Positions 26,731 through 28,875 of a DNA stretch of 64,000 nucleotides are shown piece after piece (the first letter of the stretch is position 1; the number at the start of each line of letters is the position of its first letter). Made by a program: the position numbers and the translations under genes. The notes under the pieces were generated by a model. That model was not told the origin of the DNA. It did no database searches and was given only the letters and a program-made list of their open reading frames with translations. Origin of the DNA: an uncultured Alphaproteobacteria bacterium (GTDB taxonomy: Bacteria; Pseudomonadota; Alphaproteobacteria; RF32; CAG-239); contig CALXYB010000001.1 of assembly GCA_944392835.1 (NCBI GenBank), positions 1 to 64,000 on the forward strand, written 5' to 3'.

Positions 26731-27640
26731 TTTTTTTCAAAAACTGGGCTTAGGCCTCAAAAAATCTTCCGATAAACTCACCTCGGGTATTAGTGATATT
26801 TTCACCAAGCGGAAAGTAGATTCGCAAACCTTAGAGGAGTTGGAAGAGCTTTTGATAACTTCTGACTTAGGTGTCAAAGCCAGCACCAAGATTATTGCTA
26901 ATTTTGGTGAACGCCGCCTAAACAAAGACGCAACTTCTGCCGAAATCAGAAGCGAACTGGCCGCAGATATTGAGGCGATTCTCAAGCCTTGTGAACAAAA
27001 TTTGGTTATAGATAACAACATTAAACCTTTTGTTATTCTGATGGTTGGGGTTAACGGCGCAGGTAAAACCACCACCATCGGCAAACTAACCGCCAAGTTT
27101 AAGCAAGAAGGCAAACAAATTTCCTTCATTGCCGGAGACACCTTCCGTGCCGCCGCCGTTGAACAATTGGAAGTCTGGGGTAAAAGGAATGATATCAGAG
27201 TTTATAAAGGCCCAAATGGATGCGATGCCGCGGGCTTGTGCTTTGACGGCTTGAGCGAAGCCATAAAACAAGGAGATGACATCGTTTTTATTGATACGGC
27301 AGGAAGATTGCAAAACAAAGCAGGCTTAATGGATGAGCTGAAAAAAATCATCCGCGTTATCAAAAAAGTTATTCCTGAAGCGCCGCACGCCACCTTATTG
27401 ACGATTGATGCCACCACGGGACAAAACGCTTTGGCGCAAGTCCAAACCTTCAAAGAAATGGTAGATGTTTCGGGGCTGATTATCACCAAGCTTGACGGCA
27501 CAGCTAAAGGCGGCATTTTAGTAGCCGTAGCAGAAGAACAACCTACTCCGATTCATTTCATCGGCATCGGCGAAGGAATAGATGATTTGGATAAATTTAA
27601 TGCTCATGATTTTGCCAATAGCATAATGGAATTAGAATAG
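26723..27640 (+). CDS. ftsY: Signal recognition particle receptor FtsY
   Basis: The 305-residue SRP GTPase has an N-domain (LEELLITSDLGVKAS) and G-domain motifs GVNGAGKTTTIGKL, DTFRAAAVEQLEVW, DTAGRLQNKAGLMDELKK and TKLDGTAKGGI, ending IGIGEGIDDLDKFNAHDFANSIM. It docks ribosome-SRP complexes at the membrane. The acidic N-terminal A-domain is absent; this short form is known in several lineages. It is coupled to mtaB and followed by an unusual hairpin array. Confidence 0.96.
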   Translation: MTNFFQKLGLGLKKSSDKLTSGISDIFTKRKVDSQTLEELEELLITSDLGVKASTKIIANFGERRLNKDATSAEIRSELAADIEAILKPCEQNLVIDNNIKPFVILMVGVNGAGKTTTIGKLTAKFKQEGKQISFIAGDTFRAAAVEQLEVWGKRNDIRVYKGPNGCDAAGLCFDGLSEAIKQGDDIVFIDTAGRLQNKAGLMDELKKIIRVIKKVIPEAPHATLLTIDATTGQNALAQVQTFKEMVDVSGLIITKLDGTAKGGILVAVAEEQPTPIHFIGIGEGIDDLDKFNAHDFANSIMELE

Positions 27641-27644
27641 ATAT

Positions 27645-27760
27645 CCCCCTGTAAACTGGGGGTTCTATAACAGCTACAAACCTTACGGTTTGACCACGCT
27701 CGTTGGCGTGGAGCGGTGTTGTTCCAACACCTTGGCATTCAGCCCCGAGTAAACTCGGGG
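27645..27760 (+). ncRNA. Array of five adjacent hairpins (possible IS200/IS605-derived element or TnpB-type guide RNA scaffold)
   Basis: Five stems follow one another: CCCCC/GGGGG (27645-27662, TAAA loop), AAACC/GGTTT (27678-27691), CCACGC/GCGTGG (27694-27711), GGTGTTG/CAACACC (27715-27731) and CCCCGAG/CTCGGGG (27743-27760, TAAA loop). The first and last share GTAAACT and a TAAA loop, like the paired end palindromes of IS200/IS605 elements. The inner part resembles TnpB omega-RNA scaffolds. There is no tnpA or tnpB nearby. It starts five bases after the ftsY stop. The last hairpin may also terminate ftsY. Confidence 0.5.
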
Positions 27761-27783
27761 TTTTCTGTAAGGCAACTAATAAG

Positions 27784-27819
27784 CAAAAGCCTGTTCTCAA
27801 AAAAGAACAGGCTTTTTTT
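27784..27819. terminator. Bidirectional terminator
   Basis: AAAAGCCTGTTCT and AGAACAGGCTTTT form a perfect stem. It lies between the hairpin array and the convergent 191-residue gene. Confidence 0.85.
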
Positions 27820-27823
27820 CAAC

Positions 27824-28399
27824 TTAATCAGCATCGCAGACCACCAACCAACTAAGCTTTTCCTTAGGATTAATCCCTTCTATCCTAAAATCTGGATAAT
27901 AATACATCACAGATTCAAGTCGGTCAGAATTGTTCAAACAAGTTAAACAATCGCGTTCATTATCAATAAAACAAGGAAGAGAAAAAACATACCGCAATTT
28001 CTCCAAATCCTCAAGGTGTCTTTTGGCATCTAACACATAGGTCAGTTCCCTCTCTTGAGGAACACGCCATGAATAGGATGAAATTTTAGGAAGAGTCTTG
28101 ATAAAAGCTTGCACTTGCTCAAAATTTGCGTTTTTTAACCCCCGAGCCAATACCCAAAGCTCTCTCTCCTTACATAGCGGAAAATTGCATACGGAACTGA
28201 TACGAAAAGCAATAGGATTTTTAGCCAAATCAATTCGACGCGAGACTTCACCATCTTCATAATAAATATCTAACGGTGAACCTTCTTTAATTATTTCCAT
28301 TTGAGAAAATAATTCATACAACTCATCTTCATTAATACAATGCTGTGTGCAAAAATCTTGGAGTAAATTAATTTTGCACAATCTTTCTTCATTTGTCAT
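27824..28399 (-). CDS. Hypothetical protein, 191 residues
   Basis: No family is confidently recognised. The C-terminal half shows SYSWRVPQERELTYVL and then a Cys-rich stretch (CFIDNERDCLTCLNN), faintly like DUF1566/Lcl-type domains in which a W-R-x-P-x-x-x-E-L motif recurs. There is no signal peptide or membrane segment. It lies 78 bases downstream of the HigA-like regulator on the same strand, so the two could be co-transcribed, but it does not look like a HigB toxin. Confidence 0.65.
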   Translation of the reverse strand: MTNEERLCKINLLQDFCTQHCINEDELYELFSQMEIIKEGSPLDIYYEDGEVSRRIDLAKNPIAFRISSVCNFPLCKERELWVLARGLKNANFEQVQAFIKTLPKISSYSWRVPQERELTYVLDAKRHLEDLEKLRYVFSLPCFIDNERDCLTCLNNSDRLESVMYYYPDFRIEGINPKEKLSWLVVCDAD

Positions 28400-28477: not shown

Positions 28478-28786
28478 TTATCTTTTAGCCTTTACCGTAT
28501 CTTGAAGGATAGGAATTTCTTTCAACTTGCGTTGCAAAGAACGCTCAGCCAAAATCAAATCATACTCCAATTGCAATTTGGCAAAATATCCCTGCTTAAC
28601 TTCAAAAAAATGACAAAGAAGGATATCCGTTTCCGACGTAATCCGACGTTTACCAGAAATAATTTCATAAATTCTGGTCCAAGTAACATTCAAATAACGG
28701 GATAATTCCATAGGAGAAATACCATTTTTAGCACAAAGTCGCTTCATTTCGACAACACCTTGATTGGCAACAACTTCTGTTTTCAT
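28478..28786 (-). CDS. HigA/VapI-type helix-turn-helix antitoxin-like regulator
   Basis: The 102-residue protein (start MKTEVVANQG) has NGISPMELSRYLNVTWTRIYEIISGKRRITSETDILLCHFFEVKQGYFAKLQLEYDL, the XRE-family pattern of HigA antitoxins (antidote to RelE-like HigB). No HigB gene is adjacent on either side, so it is an orphan or its partner is unrecognised. The region upstream holds a tandem repeat and a long palindrome that fit autoregulation. In-frame codons upstream to 28843 are ignored because the family start is at 28786. Confidence 0.8.
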   Translation of the reverse strand: MKTEVVANQGVVEMKRLCAKNGISPMELSRYLNVTWTRIYEIISGKRRITSETDILLCHFFEVKQGYFAKLQLEYDLILAERSLQRKLKEIPILQDTVKAKR

Positions 28787-28825
28787 TTTTTTACCTTTTT
28801 TCAAAAAGCTTAAAGAGCGGCAAAC

Positions 28826-28875
28826 TAGCAATAAGAGATGCAAATTATCAATTTAGCAATAAGAGAGGCAAATTA
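28826..28875. repeat. Tandem 22-bp direct repeat upstream of the HigA-like gene
   Basis: TAGCAATAAGAGATGCAAAT at 28826 recurs at 28854 with one change (GATG to GAGG). The period is 28 bases. It lies 40-90 bases before the regulator start. Confidence 0.75.

Follow-up and report, generated by a model that had tools for sequence, protein, structure and literature searches.

The array of hairpins found 3' of ftsY in the window (the whole stretch of 64,000 nucleotides that was analysed) is very probably a palindrome-associated transposable element (PATE) of 142 bp that travels as the passenger of an IS200-group transposon and would be mobilised in trans by the TnpA of the latter. Such elements were described in Haloquadratum walsbyi as having palindromes near the termini, no terminal inverted repeats and no target duplication, being too short for a transposase, and having ends like those of IS605-type transposons (PMC3119063). 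All these traits are also present in the 142-bp element: its termini (GATATCC... and ...CTAATA) show no inverse complementarity, the palindromes near both of them are related to an IS200/IS605 element, no transposase is encoded in its 142 bp, and its copies are dispersed, mobile and inserted with no target duplication. It differs from the PATEs of H. walsbyi in its bacterial host family, in a partner that carries tnpA only (IS200 group), in having three core stems, of which two covary, and in a strong preference for sites beside terminators. We have here a PATE family outside haloarchaea, nearly identical over 13 alphaproteobacterial genera of the gut. The first-pass annotation had already suggested a non-autonomous IS200/IS605 derivative (PATE), and this reading is upheld by the dispersed copies, the empty sites, the lack of duplication and an autonomous partner with the same ends.

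Structure of the element and its conservation

The complete element, GATATC...CTAATA, occupies positions 27640..27781 (+), slightly more than the 27645-27760 first assigned to it, its limits being fixed by the empty site of three same-genus genomes. Five stem-loops are found in it. The left-end subterminal hairpin (27645..27662, +) has a TAAA loop and equals that of the autonomous partner except for one base of the window copy. Core stem 2 (27677..27692, +) is mostly invariant and overlaps a stretch resembling the 3' end of tnpA (CAGCT.CAAAC), while core stems 3 (27694..27711, +) and 4 (27715..27731, +) have compensatory changes among copies. The right-end subterminal hairpin (27743..27760, +), also with a TAAA loop, has the flanks CATTCA and TCTGTAAGGC, both common to the autonomous partner. 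The RNA folding of the hairpin region reaches -60.2 kcal/mol (z -5.2, with none of 200 shuffles equal) and the DNA folding -33.6 (z -6.2), with z -5.4 for the opposite DNA strand. These z-scores bear out the five clean stems in 116 bases reported earlier, and the loop pattern said to be shared by the outer two stems is indeed found, as a (G)TAAA(C) loop repeated directly, in the same orientation.

Covariation in the fold was tested on 30 diverse copies with 500 shuffles. Bases pair in 94.7% of the cells, 14 pairs show double changes (50 cells), and the score is reached by no shuffle, while slid structures collapse. Covariation is seen in both end stems as well as in core stems 3 and 4; core stem 2 is nearly constant. 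Maintenance of the stems could reflect single-stranded DNA folding in transposition or a role as RNA, and we favour the DNA reading.

Insertion at ftsY and empty sites

The site at ftsY is unoccupied in three genomes of the same genus (G012, G013 and G014), reading GAATA/AGCAAAAGC, where the slash marks the joint. The ftsY end is GGAATTAGAATAAGCAAAAGCC... in these genomes, whose FtsY proteins are 97-98% identical to that of the window, and GGAATTAGAATA followed by 142 bases and AGCAAAAGCC... in the window. From these exact empty sites in three relatives we conclude that the insertion was clean and generated no target duplication, the boundary being ambiguous within the shared AATA. This AATA (27636..27639, +), kept in the empty sites, is the 5' target and the proposed left cleavage site. 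The ftsY stop is TAA in the relatives and was turned by the insertion into TAG (27638..27640, +), made of the target TA and the first G of the element, with the FtsY protein unchanged.

A second PATE insertion (G012) also has an empty counterpart in sister genomes, and so does an insertion of an autonomous copy (trmB-like gene, G013); the right end of this autonomous copy is cut by the end of the contig, and the absence of duplication is an observation on PATE copies only. Mobility of the element is shown by these pairs of empty and filled sites. Every empty counterpart (ftsY, the trmB-like gene and the second PATE site) already carries a terminator. At ftsY, it is an intrinsic terminator adjoining the insertion (~27785..27820, +), a sixth hairpin that belongs to the target and lies outside the element since it is present in the empty sites. 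It is bidirectional, serving ftsY and the convergent gene at 27824-28399 (-). The latter is an uncharacterised gene of 191 aa, and near it there is a 121-aa open frame (28478-28843, -) which, judged by eye, resembles a regulator of the HTH antitoxin type.

Copies and spread

At least 97 stretches in public genomes contain a word of 20 bases taken from the right hairpin, nearly all of them in alphaproteobacterial or unclassified proteobacterial MAGs; a match in Vibrio was discarded as the palindrome alone. When aligned, the stretches turn out to be one and the same element of ~142 bases, set in flanks that are unrelated to one another. The window copy matches the family consensus at 99% over 27640-27781 (BLAST), and a search of the whole window genome found a single copy, the one at ftsY. 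Near-identical copies are present in 49 of the 126 genomes of the window's family, covering 13 of its 16 genera, and copies identical in all 142 bases occur in 7 genera. Among those of the seven genera that are listed, FtsY is 66-79% identical to the window's, and such a difference from the 142/142 identity of the element suggests recent horizontal movement. The element at ftsY was probably acquired via horizontal transfer. A lack of copies elsewhere, one of the refuting conditions named by the first-pass annotation, is contradicted by this dispersal.

Outside the family, 289 genomes sampled from the class gave a single match, a weak one of 27 bases. No copy was found in plasmids or by an exact scan of IMG/VR. 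Five matches were labelled as phage, of which three were opened (MT839539, MT838190 and MT835812, all "Bacteriophage sp." from human faeces). MT839539 and MT835812 hold housekeeping-type genes (nagB-, msrB- and dnaB-like by eye). We take the three records, which are unverified scaffolds from viromes, as probable bacterial contamination rather than phage vectors. Many copies lie at contig ends, and such repeats break MAG assemblies. Two genomes (G020 and G021) have several PATE copies and no detected TnpA, which could be a matter of assembly loss or of another mobilising enzyme.

The autonomous partner

Several sister genomes, G013 of the same genus among them, have an autonomous IS200-group element of 558 bp. 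This element has a Y1 HUH tnpA gene, located on the opposite strand, and no tnpB. Its left end is identical to the PATE family consensus in 30 of 30 bases, from which the window copy departs by one base, and the next stretch of similarity between both elements is the 3' end of tnpA that was mentioned for core stem 2. The right end is also common to both (CATTCA-hairpin-TCTGTAAGGC-TAATA), with a hairpin whose sequence differs between the PATE and the autonomous element. The partner TnpA scores 122.9 bits with the IS200/IS605 transposase model NF033573 (cut-off 55) and resembles the solved TnpA structures of the ISHp608 and ISDra2 types. The partner shares its ends and its TnpA with the IS200-group elements, which have TnpA only; the 142-bp element differs from them in being geneless and in choosing targets where ATA has a hairpin on its 3' side. 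The likeness to IS608 and ISDra2 (IS605 group) lies in the insertion 3' of a short target, the subterminal hairpins and the related Y1 TnpA, whereas these have a tetra- or pentanucleotide alone as target, instead of ATA and a hairpin, and tnpB is missing here.

TnpA was not found in the search of the window genome, where present mobility is doubtful for this reason, considering also that a multicopy IS may be lost in MAG assembly. A lack of tnpA, which the first-pass annotation would have held against a PATE, thus applies to the window genome and not to its sister species.

By analogy with IS608 and ISDra2, mobilisation would be carried out in trans by the partner TnpA through a single-strand mechanism. 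The left and right subterminal hairpins would be the sites bound by the Y1 (HUH) TnpA. This enzyme would cut out the top strand in the form of a single-stranded circle, to be inserted 3' of an (A)ATA target with no target duplication. At ftsY, the insertion took place after the stop codon and before the terminator, changing TAA to TAG.

In 7 of 7 autonomous copies (L171, L173-L177 and L183) a C directly follows the last conserved bases (AATAC, AAAAC or AAGAC). Nearly all PATE copies lack this C, and the IS and the PATE may therefore have different right cleavage sites. A second autonomous subfamily (L178-L182) has a TnpA ~70% identical and the left hairpin CCCCGGGTAAACCCGGGG. Other Y1 transposases of the same genomes (L099-L103) were assigned to other IS; they have different ends (e.g. 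ACTACCGGCCTAGCCGGTAGTT), indicating that several IS200-type families coexist.

Target choice

ATA lies to the left of each of the 79 unique copies (AATA in 54), and also of the autonomous copies listed. To the right of the insertions there is a hairpin preceded by a run of A, usually the terminator of the opposite-strand gene or a shared bidirectional one. Using as controls the unoccupied intergenic NATA/A sites of the same loci (joint before the last A), a stable hairpin follows 52 of 56 intergenic insertions (93%) and 617 of 3843 controls (16%; p 5e-36), the genes being called by a simple rule on open frames and a few of the insertions being possibly orthologous. The distance from the joint to the first GC pair is 5-9 nt in 45/56 insertions and 242/3843 controls. 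As these statistics show, the insertions are located directly 5' of a hairpin that is usually an intrinsic terminator. A hairpin also follows, by eye, the right ends of at least 5 of the 7 listed autonomous copies (L171, L174, L175, L177 and L183). The right-hand gene is on the minus strand in 41/44 insertions and 156/199 unoccupied hairpin sites (p ~0.03), an excess too weak to take the direction of transcription as the cause of the strand bias, most of which is accounted for by sequence and hairpin.

The left end of the element itself has 5 nt from joint to stem, about the spacing observed at the target hairpins, and such a fixed spacing is more easily explained if TnpA treats the hairpin of the terminator as though it were its left end. 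We tentatively propose that TnpA chooses its target by structure as well as sequence, that is, ATA and then, after 5-9 nt, a folded hairpin, as a rule that of an intrinsic terminator, that it may read in place of its own left-end hairpin. We see as less likely, even if worth serious attention, a plain IS200-type passenger associated with terminators by selection, for which only the insertions between genes and outside operons survive. Selection must act against genic insertion, and most insertions are convergent or located after a terminator. A contribution of selection for harmless sites is to be expected in any case, and part of the preference could come from the survival of such insertions and not from enzyme choice. 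The difference of 93% to 16%, however, was obtained among intergenic sites alone, and it persists when only convergent gene pairs are compared, with a hairpin in 21/22 insertions against 134/377 controls and the 5-9 nt spacing in 19/22 against 59/377 (p 5e-12).

An IS200-type transposase that finds terminator hairpins, as suggested by these data, would link the recognition of transposon ends to that of the target. If hairpin-guided targeting is true, the transposon and its passengers would have a built-in harmless landing site. In the open-access literature we found no previous description of IS200/IS605 elements that target terminator hairpins. Group IIC introns, retroelements that use reverse splicing, also insert beside intrinsic terminator hairpins; the terminator-adjacent insertion is alike and the sequence is unrelated.

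Other readings of the hairpin array

Dispersed extragenic palindromes and a transposase of the Y1 superfamily are shared with REP/BIME repeats moved by RAYT (TnpA-REP). It is very unlikely that the array is one of them, since its outer hairpins are direct and not inverted, the partner TnpA reaches only 29.1 bits with the RAYT model NF047646 (cut-off 80) against the 122.9 bits of its IS200 fit, and there are autonomous copies in which tnpA itself lies inside the mobile unit bearing the same ends as the PATE.

A series of stems on the same strand, covariation in the core stems and IS200/IS605-type ends could also be expected of an orphan omega or guide RNA of a TnpB or IscB encoded elsewhere, with the stems as scaffold and the 3' flank as guide, as the first-pass annotation had offered in second place. 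We give this reading hardly any credit. The tnpB search that it called for, in the window genome and 11 relatives, gave no TnpB Zn-domain (PF07282) above cut-off in any of the 12 genomes, only matches of 21-24 bits covering part of the profile. Rfam at gathering and relaxed thresholds returned no credible family, guide RNAs included, the best sub-threshold hits being generic terminator-like sRNAs. Furthermore, the autonomous partner encodes TnpA alone, and the 3' flanks are local terminators that differ from site to site. Repeats such as these PATEs can be misread as structured RNAs.

A structured 3' UTR of ftsY encoded by the host, or a terminator of this gene made of several hairpins, compatible with the position directly after the ftsY stop and with the TTTT after the right hairpin, is refuted practically beyond doubt by the empty sites, where the array is absent at ftsY in spite of FtsY proteins nearly identical to the window's, and many genomes have this sequence downstream of unrelated genes.
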